Shown here: positions 5,884 to 49,957 of the stretch, piece by piece
Position numbering within the stretch: position 1 is the first letter of the stretch
Layout of the letters: each line of letters starts with the position of its first letter
Origin: Planctomycetota bacterium
Lineage (GTDB): Bacteria > Planctomycetota > UBA8742 > UBA2392
Direction: 5' to 3'
Assembly (NCBI GenBank): GCA_022071975.1
Contig: JAJVIO010000075.1
Location: forward strand, 1 to 49,957
DNA length: 49,957 nt
Notes under the pieces: generated by a model
Told to the model about the DNA's origin: nothing
Databases searched by the model: none
What the model saw: the letters and a program-made list of their open reading frames with translations, nothing else
Program-made: the position numbers and the translations under genes

Positions 5884-6354
5884 ATGCCGGACACCGAACA
5901 ACTGGCCGAGCGTTACATCAGCTCCGTGGAAGCCTTCATCGACTGCGTGCGCGACGTCCGCAACGACCGGATGGACGTCCGCGAGGGCCCCGACGGCTGG
6001 TCACCCCGCGACATCGCGTTCCATGTGGCCGACGTGGACTCCATGCTGGGCCTGCGCCTGCGCCGCATCCTGTGCGAGGATTACCCGCAGCTTTCCGGCC
6101 TGGACACCCAGGCATCCGTGCAACTGTTTCGTCGCGGGCGCCTGCACGTTGAGCTTGCGCTGGATGCCCTGAGCGCCAGCTCAGCCCTCAACACGGCGCT
6201 GATCGAGAAACTTTCACCGGCCGACCTTGCCCGCAAGGGGCGCCACAGCGGGGGCCACGACGTAAGCGCAGCCGACCTGGCCGCCTTCATGGCCATGCAC
6301 ATCGAGGCGCACATCAAGCAAATGAAGCGGGTGTTGAAGGCGGCGGCCCGGTAA
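5884..6354 (+). CDS. DinB-like four-helix-bundle protein
   Basis: 156 residues from the ATG at 5884, chosen over an ATG at 5872 because GGAAG at 5874-5878 lies five bases upstream. The helical pattern, GWSPRDIAFHVADVD in the first third and HIEAHIKQM at the end, matches the DinB/YfiT-like fold, in which three histidines can bind a divalent metal. DinB proteins are often thiol-dependent transferases or uncharacterised; no substrate can be inferred. It stands alone, converging on atpC. Confidence 0.7.
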   Translation: MPDTEQLAERYISSVEAFIDCVRDVRNDRMDVREGPDGWSPRDIAFHVADVDSMLGLRLRRILCEDYPQLSGLDTQASVQLFRRGRLHVELALDALSASSALNTALIEKLSPADLARKGRHSGGHDVSAADLAAFMAMHIEAHIKQMKRVLKAAAR

Positions 6355-6405
6355 AAAAACGTAGGGACACGCTGCCGCGTGTCCCTACCGGTTCGTCTGA
6401 AGAAT

Positions 6406-6825
6406 TTACATCGCCTTCAGCAGGCGGTCGCAGGAGCGCAGCCACTCGAGGTCGGCCTGCAGCTCCGCGCGGCGCTGCGGGTCGGTTGCCTCGGTGATTG
6501 CTTTCTGCAGGCGCTCGATGTCGGCGGGGTTCACGCCCTTCAGCTGCGTGACGTCCTTGGCGTCCTCACTCAGCACAACCACCTTGTCGTGGCTCACCTC
6601 GAGGTAGCCCTGCTTGATGGCGTAGCGATGCACTTTTTTGTCCGCACCTTCGCCTACGGTTACGCGCACCTCGCCGATGCCCAGCTTGGCCACCATGGGC
6701 GCGTGCCCCGGCAGGATGCCGACTTCACCGTCCCAGGCCTGGGCGCTGATGGTCGAGGCCCGGCCGGAGTAAACCGGCTTTTCCGGGCTGATGATGTCCA
6801 CCTGCAGTGTCTTGTTGTCGCTCAT
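6406..6825 (-). CDS. atpC: ATP synthase F1 epsilon subunit
   Basis: 139 residues. The beta-sandwich part starts LQVDIISPEKPVYSGRA and contains the GEVGILPGHAPMVAKL motif typical of AtpC; a C-terminal helical hairpin follows (DIERLQKAITEATDPQRR). The subunit couples the gamma shaft to the c-ring and can inhibit ATP hydrolysis. It is the last gene of the leftward atpD - TM2 gene - atpC set, starting 13 bases after the TM2 gene ends. Genes for alpha, gamma, delta and Fo are not in the window, so the ATP synthase genes are split in this genome. Confidence 0.95.
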   Translation of the reverse strand: MSDNKTLQVDIISPEKPVYSGRASTISAQAWDGEVGILPGHAPMVAKLGIGEVRVTVGEGADKKVHRYAIKQGYLEVSHDKVVVLSEDAKDVTQLKGVNPADIERLQKAITEATDPQRRAELQADLEWLRSCDRLLKAM

Positions 6826-6837
6826 GTCGTCAGGTCT

Positions 6838-7236
6838 TTAGTTCGGGCGCAGCGGTCGGCCGTCAGCGTCCGTTACGTTGTCGCCGGTCAGGATCATGAT
6901 GCCGTCGATAAACGGCCACAGCGCGCCGATGCCGCATGTCAGCCAGGTCACCGCAAGCTGGGCGATCGCCAGGCCGATGTGCCCGGTGTAGAAGCGCCCG
7001 ACGGCAAAGCCGCCCAGCAGGAGCTGCAGCAGGCCCGCCACCATCTTCTGCTTGTCGGAGTACGGGATGCCGGTGCGCGGGTCAACGCCGTAGGGGGCGT
7101 TCGGGTCCTGGCCGCCGGCCGGCGGATAGCCGCCCGGCTGCTGGTATGCAGCCTGCTGCGGGTAGCCGCCCGGGGGCGGGTAGTTGCCTTGCGGCTGTTG
7201 CGGGTAGCCGTGCCCGGGAGGGGGACTTCCTGCCAT
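6838..7236 (-). CDS. TM2-domain membrane protein with Pro/Gly/Gln/Tyr-rich N-terminus
   Basis: 132 residues. Residues 1-50 are low complexity with repeated GGYPQQ/GGYPPAGG units, likely disordered and cytoplasmic. They are followed by a TM2 domain: SDKQKMVAGLLQLLLGGFAV, then GRFYTGHIGLAIAQL and a second hydrophobic segment ending DGIMIL. The two helices are joined by the family GRFY-type turn. Function of bacterial TM2 proteins is not established. It sits between atpD and atpC on the same strand with short gaps (54 and 12 bases), so it is probably cotranscribed with ATP synthase genes. Confidence 0.85.
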   Translation of the reverse strand: MAGSPPPGHGYPQQPQGNYPPPGGYPQQAAYQQPGGYPPAGGQDPNAPYGVDPRTGIPYSDKQKMVAGLLQLLLGGFAVGRFYTGHIGLAIAQLAVTWLTCGIGALWPFIDGIMILTGDNVTDADGRPLRPN

Positions 7237-42042: not shown

Positions 42043-42222
42043 CAGTGTCCGCTAAGGTGCGAATAAGGCCGCCGTGGCGGCTGTTGTCGGTAAGGACGAT
42101 AGTTTAGCCGCCCGTCAGTGCAAACGGGCGGCGAGAAAATCATGCCCAAATCGGCCCGCCGTCTCGTAGCATAGGTAACACGTCCTGTAGTGCGGCGGGA
42201 CGTATGCTAAGGAAGGACCTTC
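42043..42222 (+). promoter_or_regulatory. Intergenic region upstream of the DsbD selenoprotein gene
   Basis: 180 bases between divergent genes. GGAAGGA at 42211-42217 is a strong Shine-Dalgarno five bases before ATG 42223. A TATGCT at 42203-42208 could be a -10 box but is very close to the start, so the call is weak. Confidence 0.4.
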
Positions 42223-45200
42223 ATGCGAATTGCCGCGTGCCTGCTGCTGCTTGCAGCCTTATCCCCGGCGCTGGTCGCCCAGGAAGGGCTGACCGTTTCG
42301 GTTGAGCCGGTCGTCGAAGGCCAGGCTGAGCCCGGCAAAGAGTACACCCTCAAGCTGCGCTTCACAGTGCCTGAGGGGTATCACGCCTACCACAAGGACA
42401 ACCCGGGCTACAGCAAGCCGGTCACCGTGACCTGGACGGAACTCGCCGGCCTGAAGCTGGTGAAGGAAACCTGGCCCGAGCCGCACAAGCACGTCGACGA
42501 GTTCAGCGAAGAGTGGGAGCTCGACGGCACCTTCGACATCGCCTACACCTTCGCGGTCCCAGCCGACGCCACCGGCAGCCTGGCACTCACCGGCAAACAC
42601 GACACACAGTTCTGCGACGCCGACGGCTGCCTGCAGGCTGAAGGCGAGTTCACGGCCGTCATCACGGTTGCCGCCCCGAGCGCCGAGCCCGCCCCGGCCG
42701 AGGAGCTGAAGTTCACGGCCACCCTGAGCGCCGAGCCCGCCAAGGCCGGCGGCCTGGCCACGGTGAAGCTGAAGCTGGAGTACAGCAAGGGCTTTCACAC
42801 CTACCACAAGGACAACCCGGGCTTCGGCCTCGCGCCGAAGGTCGAGTGGACCGAGACCTCAGGCCTGAAGCTGAAAGACACCAGCTGGCCCGAGCCGGTA
42901 ACGCACACCGTCGATGAAGACTGGATCGAGTGGGAGTACCCGGACGGCGTCACGCTGACCTACAGCTTCGAGGTGCCGGCCGACGCAAAGGGCGAGCTGA
43001 GCCTGAAGGGCAAGTACGAGATCCAGGTCTGTGACGAGAACGGCTGTTTCGACAAGAAGGGCGAAATCAGCACCACCATCAAGCTCGAGACTGTCGCGGC
43101 CCCCGAAGAGAACAGTACCAAAGACGCCCACGGCTTCTACGTGGACTTCGATTACGCCCTGGCCCAGGCCAAGGCCGAGAACAAGCCCCTGCTTGTGGAT
43201 TTCAACGGCCGCTACTGAGGGCCCTGCCGGAAAATGGAGCGTGAGGTCTTCACGCTCCGCGAAGTGGAAGAGCTGTTCAGAAATTTCGTGATCGTCAGCG
43301 TCGTGACCGACGTGGGCGACGAAAAGGCGAACGCCATTTGGGCGAAGTACCGGCCCGAAGACGGCGGCGGCATCCCGCACTACGCGGTGCTTGACCACGA
43401 CGGCAAAGTGCAGCGCCGCAGCGGCGCCACGCTCCCAGCCAAGGAAAAGGCCAACCAGTTCGTAGCCTTCCTGAAGGGCGAGCCCGTGGCCGTGCAGCCG
43501 GTAAGCGCCACGGAGCCCACCAAGGCCGCGCTGCCCCAGGCGGCCGACGCCTGGCCGGAGGGGCTGTACGGCCCGCCGACGGAGCCGGTGAAGAAGGGCT
43601 TTGACTTCGAAGCGAAGTTCAGCACGAACAAAATCAAAGCGGGCGGCGAAGTGACGCTTGAGCTGCACTTCAAGCTCAAGAACAACGCAACGGGCGAGCC
43701 CTTCCACCTCCACCACCCGAAGACACCCAGCAAGTTCGCGGTGCCGCTGGCGCTGACGCTCAAGGGCCACGACGGCCTGGTCGCCATGGGCGACTGGGAG
43801 TTCCCGGCCTGGACCGAGCACTACGACGAAATCCTGGAAGAGACTAACTACTACCTGATGGGTGAAGTCGTGGTCGTGCATCGCTTCAAGGTGCCCGAAG
43901 ACGCCAAGCCCGGCATGCTGCGCGCGTTCGGGCTGGTCAGCGGACAGTACTGCGATGACATGGGCTGCACGCAGTTCAACCGTGACAACCCGGACATGCT
44001 TGACCGCAAGTTTGGCTGGGTAGCGAGTATCGAAGTGTCGCCGGAAGGCGCTGCCAGCGCCACCACCGAGGCCACGGCCAGCGTTTCACAAGGCAAAGCA
44101 ACCAAGGATGAGTCGCCCGCCGACAAGGGCTTCTTCTGGCTGCTGCTGGCGGCTTTCGGCGCCGGCATCATCACGCTGCTGACGCCCTGCGTGCTGCCGG
44201 TGCTGCCGCTGACCATCGGCTTCTTTGTCAGCCAGCACGATAAAGGCAAGTCGCCGCTGCTGACCGCGTTCATCTACTGCACCTGCATCGTGGCGACCTT
44301 TACGCTCTTCGGCCTGATCACATCGATTGCACTGGGCGCCACCGGCGCGCAGAACATCGCGACGAACGGTTATGTGAACATGCTGCTCGGCATCATGTTC
44401 CTGGTGTTCGCGCTCAGCTTCCTGGGCCTGTTCGAGCTGCGCGTCCCCACCTTCATGACCCAGTGGTTCACCAAGAAGCAGATGGCGGCGCAGAAAGAAG
44501 GCCACGGCTATGCCAAAGCTTTCTTCAGCGGCGCGGCCTTCTCGCTGATCAGCTTCTCCTGCACCGGCCCCATCGCAGGCACATTCCTGGCACAGGCCGC
44601 AACGGGCAGCTACTGGGTGCCGACGGCCGCGATGATGGCGTTCAGCACCGGCATGGCGCTGCCCATCTTTATCATGGGCCAGTTCCCCAGCTTGATGAAG
44701 AAGATGCCCAAGTCCGGCGGCTGGATGAACGCCATGAAGGTGGTGTTCGGCTTCATCGAGGTCGGCCTCGCCATTATGTACTTCAGCGCCGCGGAACAGG
44801 CTTTCCGGGGCATCGTGGCCGCGGAGTGGATCAGCCGCTACGTGGTGATCGCGGTGTGGGCCGCGGCCAGCGTGGCAACGGCGCTGTACCTGTTCGGCTT
44901 CTTCCGCATGCCGCACGATCACGAGGAAACCAAACAGATCGGCGTGATCCGCGGCGTTCTGGCGGTGATCTTCCTGAGCTTCGGCCTGTACATGATTCCC
45001 GGCCTGTTCGGCGCCAAGTACGGCAACGTGCTGGAAGGCATTTTGCCGCCGCCGCCGAAGGACGGGGGAATCCAGCTGGCAGTGGGGGGAGGCGCGAAGG
45101 CTTACGACCACCACGACCTGCCATGGCACAAGGATTTCGACGAGGGCATGGCGGAGGCCAAGGCGAAAAACAAGCCGGTGTTCATCGACTTCACGGGCTT

Positions 45201-45504
45201 CAACTGAAAGAACTGCCGGACCGTGGAACGGTCCATCATGCCGGAACCGGCGATCTTCGAGTCGATGCGCGATGACTTCGTGCTTATCGCCCAGTACACC
45301 GACGACCAGCAGGACGAGAAGCCCGCCAAGGTGTTCGAGCGCTTCTTCCCGGGCGGCGGCTCGATCCCCGTCTACATGGTGCTGGACACGGACGGGAACG
45401 TGCTGGCCAAGCTGGAGTGGCCGGCCGATCGGCCGAACATGACCAAGGAAGAGTTCCTGGCGTTCATGAAGGAAGGGCTGGCGAAGTTTGCGGCCCTGAA
45501 GTGA
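42223..45504 (+). CDS. DsbD-family thiol:disulfide interchange protein with two predicted selenocysteines
   Basis: One frame of 1093 residues if TGA at 43216-43218 (residue 332) and 45205-45207 (residue 995) are read as selenocysteine. Order: signal peptide (1-19); two DsbD N-terminal-type beta domains with C131/C136 and C270/C275; thioredoxin domain 1 with UGPC (332-335) after LLVDFNGRY; a third beta domain (C577/C582); an eight-helix DsbD beta domain (about 636-927) with C656 in LLTPCVLP and C780 in SFSCTGPIAG; thioredoxin domain 2 with UKNC (995-998) after FIDFTGFN. In ordinary DsbD the U positions are cysteine. Electrons would pass from cytoplasmic thioredoxin through the membrane to periplasmic thiols. 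Sequence after each TGA continues the domain exactly and each TGA is followed by a SECIS-like hairpin. Without Sec insertion only fragments would be made. SelABCD are not in the window. Confidence 0.9.
43216..43258 (+). promoter_or_regulatory. UGA codon and SECIS-like element 1
   Basis: TGA at 43216-43218, then a perfect nine-base stem GGAGCGTGA (43236-43244) / TCACGCTCC (43250-43258) around the loop GGTCT. A GGUCU loop is the same core as in the E. coli fdhF SECIS. The loop begins 26 bases after the TGA, within the range allowed for bacterial SECIS elements. Confidence 0.8.
45205..45234 (+). promoter_or_regulatory. UGA codon and SECIS-like element 2
   Basis: TGA at 45205-45207, then stem GGACCG (45218-45223) / CGGTCC (45229-45234) with loop TGGAA, starting 16 bases after the TGA. 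A guanine is the second loop base, as bacterial consensus needs. Confidence 0.72.
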
Positions 45505-45572
45505 GCCGGTTCGGCCACCCTGTTTGGTTCCGCGGCCGATGTGGATAAGATGCAGCCTGCCGGCTGGAACCC

Positions 45573-47333
45573 ATGAGCGACGACGACGAGACATCCATTC
45601 GCCCACGCCAGACGGCGCTTCAGCGTTTGCTGGAGCGCCGCACTCGTACCGTTGACATGGGTGGCCCGCCTCCCAAGCGCATCTTCGACCAGGTCTCGAT
45701 CGTCACCATCGTGCTGGACACCGGCTTGCGCGTGGTACGCTACAACCGCGCCGCCGAGCGCCTGTTCCGCAAGCCGTATTCCGAAGTGCTGGGCCGACCC
45801 TGCGACGAAGTGCTGCCGGTGATCAATGAGGTCAACAGCGGCCACATCTTCCAGCGCACTATCGCCCTGGGCGTACCGGGCGAAGTCAAGGAAATGAAGA
45901 TCACCGACTCCGAGACCGGCCAGGATTACTACTTCGATTTCGTGGTGGACCCGATCCTCGACGACGACGCCCACATGGCCGGCGTCAGCCTGATCGGCCT
46001 GGACGTCACCGAGCGCGCGCTGTTGAAGCAGCGGCTGGCCCACCAGAACGAAGACCTGCTTGCCCTGCAACAGGTCAGCAACGCGCTGCGCAAGACCATG
46101 GACCTCGAGAAGGCCCTGTTCATCATCGCCACCGCGCTCACCAGCGACGAAGGCGGCGGCTACGACCTCGCCATGATCTTCACCGTGGACCAGGATCGCG
46201 AAAACCTGGTAGGCCAGGTCTGCGTCGACAGCCTCGGCCTGCGCGACGCCTGGGGCATCTGGCGCGGGCTCACCAGCCACGACGCGCCGCTGCAGAAATC
46301 GCTTGAGGCCACGCAGCCCGTGCTGGCCAAGCGCTGGGGCGAGCTGTCCGGCGTGGTCCGCAGCGTGAAAGTGCCGCTGACCGACGAGTTCAGCGTGCTG
46401 GCCCATGCCGTGCGCACCGGCGAAACCGTCACCCAGGAAACCCTGAAAGAAGACCCGCGCCTGCGCGTGCACCCGGAGATCGCGAAACACTTCCCGCTCA
46501 AGCGCTTCGCTGCCGCGCCCCTGCTGGCCGACCGCGAGGCCATCGGCGTGATCGTGGTGGATGCCTCCAGCCGCAAGCGCGACTTCAGCCCCGAGCGCCT
46601 GATGATGCTCGAGATGTTCGCGAACCAGGCCGCGCTGGCCATCAACAACGGGCTGATCTTCCAGAACGTGCTGGATCGCGCCCAGCGCGACAGCCTCACG
46701 CGCCTGTACAACCACGGCCACTTCCAGGAAGTCCTGCGCGCCGAGCTCGAGCGCGCGGTGCGCTACGGCAACCCGCTCAGCCTGATCATGCTGGATATCG
46801 ACCACTTCAAGGGCTTCAACGACACCTACGGCCACCAGACCGGCGACATGGTGCTGAAGCAGACCGCACTGCTGCTTTCGGCGCTGGTGCGCGTTACCGA
46901 CCTGCCTGCTCGCTACGGAGGCGAAGAGTTCGCCCTGCTGCTGCCGCACACAGAGTACGAGCACGCCCTGGAGCTGGCCGAGCGCCTTCGCATCGGCGTC
47001 GAGCGCAAGGTGGTGGTGACCGGCCCCCAGGGCCAGAAGATCGGGGTAACCGCGAGCTTCGGCGTCAGCAGCTTCCCGCGCCACGCCGCCGAGCCCCATG
47101 AGCTGGTGATGTGCGCCGACGCGTCGCTCTACCTTGCCAAGGACCGCGGCCGCAACCGCGTGGTCGGCGCCGATGATGTGGAAGACGTCGAGGAAACCAC
47201 CGCGCGCAAGAAGGCCACCAAACGGCCGACCATGAAGCGCCCCACTATGAAGCAGTCGAGCGAATCCGGCAGCTTCCGCGTGAAGACCCCCGGCGCCAAG
47301 AAGAAGTCGCGCAAGAGCGGCAAGGTCAAATGA
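45573..47333 (+). CDS. Diguanylate cyclase with PAS and GAF domains
   Basis: 586 residues, soluble. PAS-like 40-150, GAF-like 160-360 (VSNALRKTMDLEKALFIIAT, ERLMMLEMFANQAALAINNG), GGDEF domain 370-535 with RDSLTRLYNHGHFQEVL and the active-site GGEEF at 449-453. An inhibitory RxxD site (R440-D443) lies five residues before it. It makes cyclic di-GMP from GTP in response to whatever the sensory domains bind. The end is very rich in Lys/Arg/Pro. Stop and next start overlap (ATGA). Confidence 0.93.
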   Translation: MSDDDETSIRPRQTALQRLLERRTRTVDMGGPPPKRIFDQVSIVTIVLDTGLRVVRYNRAAERLFRKPYSEVLGRPCDEVLPVINEVNSGHIFQRTIALGVPGEVKEMKITDSETGQDYYFDFVVDPILDDDAHMAGVSLIGLDVTERALLKQRLAHQNEDLLALQQVSNALRKTMDLEKALFIIATALTSDEGGGYDLAMIFTVDQDRENLVGQVCVDSLGLRDAWGIWRGLTSHDAPLQKSLEATQPVLAKRWGELSGVVRSVKVPLTDEFSVLAHAVRTGETVTQETLKEDPRLRVHPEIAKHFPLKRFAAAPLLADREAIGVIVVDASSRKRDFSPERLMMLEMFANQAALAINNGLIFQNVLDRAQRDSLTRLYNHGHFQEVLRAELERAVRYGNPLSLIMLDIDHFKGFNDTYGHQTGDMVLKQTALLLSALVRVTDLPARYGGEEFALLLPHTEYEHALELAERLRIGVERKVVVTGPQGQKIGVTASFGVSSFPRHAAEPHELVMCADASLYLAKDRGRNRVVGADDVEDVEETTARKKATKRPTMKRPTMKQSSESGSFRVKTPGAKKKSRKSGKVK

Positions 47334-48838: not shown

Positions 48839-48907
48839 CTTTTCCACACCTGTCTGATTTCCCGCCGTGTGCTAGAAACCGCGCAGCTTACGCACTTGGA
48901 GTTGACC

Positions 48908-49957
48908 ATGGACCTGATGCCGATTCGCCGCGTGCTGGTTTCCGTTTCCGACAAGGCCGGTGTTGTCGAGTTCTGCAAGGCGCTCTCGCAGTGGGGGGCC
49001 GAGCTGATCTCCACCGGCGGCACCGCCAAGGCCCTGCGCGAAGCGGGCCTGAGCGTCAAGGACATCAGCGAGCACACCGGCTTTCCCGAGATGCTCGACG
49101 GCCGCGTCAAAACCCTGCATCCGAAGGTGCACGGCGGCCTGCTGGCGCGCCGCGACCTGCCCGAGCACATGAAAACCGCCGAGCAGCACGGCATCACGCC
49201 GATCGACATGGTGATCGTCAACCTGTACCCGTTCGAGGCCACCGTGGCCAAGCCCGGTGTGAGCCGCGAAGACGCGATCGAGAACATCGACATCGGCGGC
49301 CCCAGCATGGTGCGCAGCGCCGCGAAGAACCAGGACGCCGTGGCGGTCGTCACCGACCCCGCCGACTACGAAAGCCTGCGCGCCGAGCTGGACGCCAACG
49401 ACGGCAAGCTCGGCCTCAAAACCCGCCGCGCGCTGGCCCGCAAGGCGTTCCGCATGACGGCCTGGTACGACCACGCCATTGCGGAGTACCTTGAGCACCT
49501 CGAGGAAGGCGCGAGCGAGTTCGTGCCGCAGAAACTGCTGGCGCTCAAGAACGGCGTCAGCCTGCGCTACGGCGAAAACCCGCACCAGGAGGCGATGTTC
49601 TACGCCACCGGGCGTCACCCCGCCGGGCTCGGCGGCCTGCTGCAGCTCAGCGGCAAAGAGCTCAGCTACAACAACCTGCTCGACCTCGACGCCGCCATGC
49701 GCACGGCCAACGAGATCAGCGACGAGCCCTACGCCATCGTGATCAAGCACACCAACCCCTGCGGCGCGGCGACCGGCGGCAGCATCGCCGAGGCCTTTGC
49801 GCGCGCCTATGACTGCGACCCGCTGTCGGCGTTTGGCGGCATCGTGGGCCTGAACCGGCCGTTCGACCTGGCCACGGCCGAGCAGCTGATCGCGGGCGAG
49901 AAGTTCCTGGAAGCGGTGGTGGCGCCGGACTACGACGAAGACGCCGTGGAGGCGCTG
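48908..49957 (+). CDS. purH: Bifunctional AICAR transformylase/IMP cyclohydrolase (partial, 3' end outside window)
   Basis: The first 350 residues from ATG 48908. The cyclohydrolase part is at the N-terminus (RRVLVSVSDKAGVVEFCKAL, LISTGGTAKALREAG, TLHPKVHGGLLARRD, NIDIGGPSMVRSAAKN), and the transformylase part begins at about residue 210 (LRYGENPHQEAMFY, YNNLLDLDAA, IVIKHTNPCGAA, AFGGIVGLN). The last two steps to IMP. The protein is cut by the window edge, not by a mutation. A heptad array lies just upstream. Confidence 0.97.
   Translation, partial: MDLMPIRRVLVSVSDKAGVVEFCKALSQWGAELISTGGTAKALREAGLSVKDISEHTGFPEMLDGRVKTLHPKVHGGLLARRDLPEHMKTAEQHGITPIDMVIVNLYPFEATVAKPGVSREDAIENIDIGGPSMVRSAAKNQDAVAVVTDPADYESLRAELDANDGKLGLKTRRALARKAFRMTAWYDHAIAEYLEHLEEGASEFVPQKLLALKNGVSLRYGENPHQEAMFYATGRHPAGLGGLLQLSGKELSYNNLLDLDAAMRTANEISDEPYAIVIKHTNPCGAATGGSIAEAFARAYDCDPLSAFGGIVGLNRPFDLATAEQLIAGEKFLEAVVAPDYDEDAVEAL

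Follow-up and report, generated by a model that had tools for sequence, protein, structure and literature searches.

A planctomycete DsbD-like membrane reductase with predicted selenocysteine at both of its thioredoxin domains

We found a gene whose single reading frame encodes a DsbD-like membrane thiol reductase interrupted by two internal TGAs, each at the first position of a thioredoxin CxxC motif, and comparison of sequences makes it likely that 42223-45504 is one protein with selenocysteine (Sec) at both thioredoxins, decoded by SelB with the help of a hairpin after each TGA and working as a DsbD-like relay. The gene lies in the window, by which we mean the whole 49,957-nt stretch of DNA that was analysed; the window is the entire contig C31 of a planctomycete genome of 4.24 Mb that is 88.7% complete (G000). 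An initial annotation had proposed two selenocysteines in one DsbD-like chain, and that prediction is strengthened here by the Sec genes of the host, by homologs with cysteine (Cys) at the same sites and by SECIS-like hairpins.

Gene architecture and selenocysteine genes of the host

With TGA read as U, the frame starts at an ATG and contains neither TAA nor TAG, only three TGAs. The first two fall exactly where the initial annotation had placed them, at the first position of each CxxC, so that residue 332 is U (RY-U-GPC, nt 43216-43218) and residue 995 is U (FN-U-KNC, nt 45205-45207). The features of the gene are as follows.

42223..45504, + strand: entire gene for the DsbD-like membrane reductase; 1093 residues when both internal TGAs are read
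42223..42279, + strand: likely signal peptide, residues 1-19, hydrophobic, with the end LVA-QE (hydropathy; cleavage placed by eye)
42307..42657, + strand: alpha1 domain, DsbD_N, residues 29-145, with Cys131/Cys136 (Pfam PF11412)
42709..43092, + strand: alpha2 domain, about residues 163-290, with Cys270/Cys275 (second PF11412 stretch, strands in the model; limits approximate)
43144..43395, + strand: Trx1, thioredoxin domain with UGPC (PF13899 match containing one TGA)
43216..43218, + strand: TGA 1, codon 332, predicted selenocysteine (TGA or TGC in 13 of 13 family genomes having the domain)
43235..43259, + strand: predicted SECIS hairpin after TGA 1 (10 bp, loop GGUCU, 26 nt from the TGA)
43234..45207, + strand: apparent 657-aa open reading frame between both TGAs, the form of the gene in protein databases
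43600..44061, + strand: alpha3 domain, about residues 460-613, with Cys577/Cys582 (model and similarity to relatives)
44134..44781, + strand: membrane domain DsbD_TM with Cys656 and Cys780 (PF02683), with more membrane helices in the model up to about residue 928
45124..45387, + strand: Trx2, C-terminal gamma-type thioredoxin with UKNC (PF13899 with one TGA; DsbD gamma, 3f9u)
45205..45207, + strand: TGA 2, codon 995, predicted selenocysteine (alternates with a Cys codon in relatives)
45218..45234, + strand: predicted SECIS hairpin after TGA 2 (7 bp, loop GGA, 17 nt from the TGA; compensatory changes in relatives)
45502..45504, + strand: terminal TGA, taken as a real stop (best fitting hairpin -5.8 kcal/mol)

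From the N-terminus, the order is signal peptide, alpha1, alpha2, Trx1 (UGPC), alpha3, membrane domain and Trx2 (UKNC). Pfam recognised DsbD_N, Thioredoxin_7 (in two stretches) and DsbD_TM on the full chain; both DsbD_N stretches, which mark an exported alpha region ahead of the membrane part (PF11412, 71.3 bits vs. a cut-off of 25; alpha1 and alpha2), lie within residues 1-331, and each Thioredoxin_7 domain runs uninterrupted through its own TGA, in line with the earlier claim that the domains continue in frame. The membrane domain with its Cys pair scored well above threshold (PF02683, 106.5 bits vs. a cut-off of 27.1), and in profile searches against solved structures the membrane part matched CcdA and the C-terminal domain matched DsbD gamma structures; a gamma thioredoxin of the DsbD type is thus present by PF13899, by the DsbD gamma profile and by the match to structure 3f9u. 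When searched alone, alpha3 had no match in Pfam; it is all-strand in the model, aligns with the N-terminal alpha region of relatives and carries a C-x4-C pair as in the other alphas. The cysteines of the chain comprise Cys6 in the signal peptide, the three alpha pairs, Cys335 and Cys998 in the thioredoxin motifs, and residues 656, 686, 688 and 780 of the membrane domain. The whole-chain model (pTM 0.39) is too weak between domains to support contacts there; most Foldseek/VIA-align rows reflected generic similarity to Ig-like folds and were not used. Elsewhere in the window, 45573-47333 appears by eye to encode a GGDEF-domain sensor and 48869-49957 the start of purH, neither with an evident redox link.

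A search for Sec genes, which the initial annotation had called for, recovered all four. Profile searches of the genome placed selA at C28:57500-58858 (548 bits), selB at C56:283-2145 (334 bits, with SelB beta-barrel and winged-helix domains by Pfam) and selD at C12:10590-11510 (391 bits), each above its cut-off. An in-frame TGA lies at the active-site position of selD (GAGUGCK), which makes SelD a predicted selenoprotein in its own right. The tRNA-Sec gene selC, with anticodon TCA (ARAGORN, RF01852), lies ~0.76 kb after selA. RF01852 gave four matches above cut-off; two are selC on overlapping contig ends, and since the second copy lies in 127 identical bases common to the two ends, we count one gene. 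The remaining two scored 50.1 and 47.1 bits and are possibly long-arm tRNAs of another kind. The assembly itself breaks at selC, with the end of C28 and the start of C48 sharing the 127 bases that hold the tRNA.

DsbD_TM occurs once in this genome and is the only membrane domain of DsbD/CcdA type found in it, and TGA is contained in five of its seven Thioredoxin_7 matches, two of them in the DsbD-like protein; exported thiol reduction therefore likely leans on selenium in this host, as far as an 88.7%-complete genome allows. Three other genes of the genome drew our attention. L004:1150-1836 (contig C8, ~6297-6983) encodes a small protein that combines a heavy-metal-associated domain (GITULDUPN) with a thioredoxin domain (GPGULPC); its three in-frame TGAs make it a possible three-Sec metal-binding protein. 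A Thioredoxin_7 protein with more domains in frame after it (L003, C50:8031-8201, - strand) has two TGAs three codons apart (FRUVPUVDC), and an exported-looking thioredoxin with TGA in UGPC (L002, C45:1466-1789, - strand) is a possible partner of the reductase.

Hairpins downstream of the two TGAs

The published bacterial SECIS model has a loop of 3-9 nt with G in the first two positions, a stem of 4-16 bp, a distance of 16-37 nt from the UGA and a folding energy of -7.5 kcal/mol or lower (PMC13188914). Applying published bSECISearch constraints, a check named in the initial annotation, we found a fitting hairpin after both TGAs (10 bp, loop GGUCU, 26 nt and -16.0 kcal/mol at site 1; 7 bp, loop GGA, 17 nt and -9.9 kcal/mol at site 2) and none after the terminal TGA, where the best candidate reached -5.8 kcal/mol. 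By itself this is a weak criterion: the loose model also fits after 125 of the 1093 codons of the same gene, and hairpins as stable follow 10.6% (site 1) and 40% (site 2) of its codons, so that the energies are not extreme. Judged by uninterrupted stem length instead, 0.7% of the codons are followed by a stem as long as that of site 1 and 8% by one as long as that of site 2. In three Cys copies the sequence following site 1 folds into a different hairpin of similar stability (-18.0, -16.8 and -14.1 kcal/mol in G003, G005 and G004), and two of these, G003 and G005, have long uninterrupted stems of their own there (10 and 9 bp), different from the hairpin of the Sec copies. We therefore rejected stability as proof of a SECIS, the energies being ordinary for a GC-rich gene and matched in Cys copies, and the case rests instead on a hairpin that is kept in Sec and not in Cys copies (site 1) and on compensatory change. 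An Rfam search over 42200-45600 at a loose threshold returned no SECIS family, only six matches at the level expected by chance.

At site 1, 96.3% of the cells of the hairpin alignment pair in the six Sec copies vs. 36.5% in the seven Cys copies; with pairs this nearly invariant, the site offers no covariation. At site 2, 80.5% of cells pair across 12 Sec copies (11 distinct), and 14 cells have both sides changed with pairing kept (shuffled mean 5.9, none of 500 shuffles as high). The covariation score of this hairpin is 0.431 vs. at most 0.205 when the alignment is slid, compensatory changes occur in 8 of the 12 copies, and the hairpin is retained under differing protein versions (RTVERS, RTVERF and RLVERD). 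The common hairpin is not formed in four of the 12 (G007, G010, G013 and G015), where other hairpins would be needed. Hairpin energies at site 2 also differ between Sec and Cys loci (51 vs. 36 among the matches listed, p=0.0016, relatedness ignored).

Exchange of predicted selenocysteine and cysteine among relatives

We compared 16 family genomes (G000-G015), 13 of which have both thioredoxin motifs; the first is absent from G007, G008 and G012. Site 1 was counted in those 13 only, since phylum-wide readings of it are artefactual where Trx1 is absent or outside the aligned stretch (Trx2 is then aligned twice, and the wrong stretch is taken for G012). TGA stands at site 1 in six genomes (G000, G001, G002, G010, G013 and G015) and TGC in seven (G003, G004, G005, G006, G009, G011 and G014), and site 2 is TGA in 12 of 16 and TGC in four (G001, G003, G005 and G009). 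The alignment with Cys homologs suggested in the initial annotation thus turned up TGA or a Cys codon and, across the 16 genomes, nothing else at either site. The combinations among the 13 are Sec-Sec in five, Sec-Cys in one (G001), Cys-Sec in four (G004, G006, G011 and G014) and Cys-Cys in three (G003, G005 and G009), and all four are found inside one genus (six genomes, G000-G005). Because selA scores above cut-off in all 16 genomes, a lost Sec system does not explain the Cys forms.

Phylum-wide, site 2 could be read in 85 of 149 genomes among the matches listed, the remaining genomes being without a listed match that reaches the site; these hold 87 loci, 51 with TGA and 36 with TGC or TGT. 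Counted by genome among the same matches, TGA accompanies selA in 50 and occurs without it in one, and Cys accompanies selA in 24 and occurs without it in 10 (Fisher p=3.3e-4 for the link of TGA with selA; 85 genomes, relatedness ignored). The one genome with TGA and no selA above cut-off (G078, locus L065; best selA match 50 bits) is either incomplete or a real exception. A tree of 86 rows, from which one locus was left out as too short (L100 of G028), needs at least seven Sec/Cys changes at site 2 (five if only starred branches are counted), so the site has switched repeatedly. The initial annotation had called two selenocysteines in a single chain rare in bacteria; predicted Sec at the C-terminal site by itself is a common state across Planctomycetota (51 of 87 loci among the matches listed), and the pair is the rarer one (five of 16 family genomes).

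Public protein records, in which 7994 candidates were scored and 58 matched, contain the gene in pieces, six of them 650-657 aa long. Five of these six (P0005, P0008, P0011, P0028 and P0029) begin just past site 1 and stop just short of site 2, and two others (P0003 and P0004) have Cys at site 1 and likewise terminate just short of site 2; P0028 and P0029 hint, from their boundaries, at further two-Sec species. A middle piece is annotated as a sulfite exporter TauE/SafE family protein, and a gene that is split and partly misnamed in this way belongs to a class that is easy to miss.

These observations bear on whether the TGAs are what they seem. Automatic gene calling does split the gene, and the pieces in public records are what one would expect if the TGAs were true stops in a decaying gene, sequencing mistakes, or boundaries of two to three separate genes; however, both TGAs are found again at equivalent positions of independent genomes, where TGC is the only codon that replaces them, which is more than chance, and a genome 87% identical (G002) carries both, which together with public pieces bounded by both sites makes sequencing error unlikely. 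Termination at either TGA would also break off a thioredoxin fold within the CxxC motif, in a frame otherwise open, the Sec system is present in the genome, and no homolog in the 16 family genomes ends at either TGA with a separate gene downstream, so that we regard true stops or errors as very improbable. A general reassignment of TGA to Cys or Trp has the open frame as its sole point in favour and seems scarcely credible: the gene ends at a TGA beyond which homology to relatives stops, the genome encodes a tRNA-Sec whose anticodon is TCA, and each in-frame intragenic TGA that was looked at lies in a redox or SelD motif.

The Sec thioredoxin at the N-terminal site has a history of its own in G001. 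Its membrane domain is 79% identical to that of G005 and 62% to that of G000, grouping with the Cys clade, and its Trx2 follows suit (69% to G005, 41% to G000), whereas in Trx1 the relation is reversed (77% to G000, 54% to G005), with the jump in identity confined to about residues 300-415. Approximately unbiased (AU) tests rejected placing G001 with the Cys clade for Trx1 (p-AU 6e-5) and with G000 and G002 for residues 447-1088 (p-AU 2e-82), p values that are optimistic because the trees were already known when the groups were defined. These comparisons suggest that a Sec-thioredoxin segment, hairpin included, was likely exchanged between lineages, the alternative being convergence. Separately, the G002 copy (L025) and the window protein share ~90-97% identity from the Trx1 domain onward but 67% over alpha1-alpha2 (about residues 120-299), a second mosaic junction.

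Proposed relay and comparison with known systems

In DsbD, electrons pass from cytosolic thioredoxin to the membrane pair, to gamma, to alpha and on to targets, so that gamma is a middle station. By analogy, and with SelB reading each TGA aided by the hairpin directly after it, cytosolic thioredoxin would reduce the membrane domain (Cys656/Cys780), which would pass electrons to the C-terminal Sec995-Cys998 thioredoxin, where Sec995 would be the attacking residue of gamma. Trx2 would in turn serve the exported alpha domains (577/582, 270/275 and 131/136) and the added Sec332-Cys335 thioredoxin, and these would reduce exported thiol proteins, the order of stations and the final targets following the DsbD model. 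Sec in the attacking position of both domains would give faster exchange or resistance to over-oxidation. The initial annotation placed selenium at both redox ends of the relay; the two predicted Sec stand, but "ends" goes further than the sequence shows, since the C-terminal domain matches DsbD gamma and the N-terminal thioredoxin is an added domain.

Trx1 with Sec332 may be either a further relay station among the three alphas or a tethered terminal reductase. That it is such a terminal reductase outside the relay, with substrates of its own while only Trx2 takes electrons from the membrane domain, we think rather unlikely: its absence from G007, G008 and G012, the span of most phylum-wide matches listed (only the alpha3-membrane-gamma part) and its separate history in G001 would all suit such a role, but 13 of 16 family genomes keep it in the chain before the membrane domain, and in the window protein it sits between alpha domains whose Cys pairs are kept. 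Bacterial Sec read-through competes with termination, and residues 1-331 form a complete unit of signal peptide and two alphas; TGA 1 might accordingly stop some ribosomes and release a soluble exported 331-residue alpha1-alpha2 protein, with the products varying with selenium supply. We judge such a selenium-dependent switch improbable, as the codon at site 1 is TGC, not a stop, in seven family genomes, and the stop falls within the Trx1 fold and not at a domain edge.

Returning to a single chain with both TGAs read as Sec, we offer a broader proposal tentatively, as a possibility we would not yet bet on: the sole membrane gateway for reducing power may be selenium-run at both thioredoxins without a sulfur backup, and the N-terminal Sec thioredoxin may be a mobile cassette with its own SECIS that recombines between dsbD genes and so yields all four Sec/Cys combinations. 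If the gateway is indeed selenium-only, thiol export would be tied to selenium supply.

The window protein shares with DsbD, in the same order, an alpha domain (alpha3), a DsbD_TM domain with two Cys and a C-terminal gamma-type thioredoxin, and differs from it in having two more alphas and a second, N-terminal thioredoxin, with predicted Sec at both motifs. Since its NCBIfam DsbD score (NF001419, 186 bits) lies below the cut-off of 330, we call it DsbD-like and do not place it in the strict subfamily. ScsB, a copper-sensitivity suppressor related to DsbD, is not known to have a Sec or a thioredoxin ahead of the membrane part, and the open-licence literature searched held nothing relevant on ScsB combined with selenocysteine. 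Domain model cd02953 is that of the DsbD gamma domain. A "thiol:disulfide interchange protein" with one Sec is described in three papers as Trx-like 2, cd02953 and PF13098 with a UxxC motif (PMC2398784, PMC13188914, PMC1794560); the window protein resembles it in having UxxC in an interchange-type thioredoxin domain and adds a second predicted Sec in a second thioredoxin domain. TsoB (NF045694) is listed in PMC13188914 as a rhodanese/DsbD fusion-like selenoprotein with UxxxxU and two Sec. The two proteins share, on that listing, a DsbD-type membrane domain (best stretch 614-922) and two Sec per chain, predicted ones in the window protein, and differ in that TsoB has the UxxxxU motif and a rhodanese part where the window protein has two UxxC thioredoxins; the window protein scored 183.1 bits against the TsoB cut-off of 805.

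No family in the 119-family table of 2026 (PMC13188914) has Sec in a pair of thioredoxin domains of a DsbD chain, and none turned up in searches of open-licence literature. Within those sources, what appears novel is the second Sec thioredoxin domain in a DsbD chain, a single Sec in such a protein being already known. One genus holds a natural set, predicted from codons, of Sec-Sec, Sec-Cys, Cys-Sec and Cys-Cys forms of one chain, so that the benefit of Sec over Cys, a long-standing question, becomes directly testable at each step of a thiol relay.
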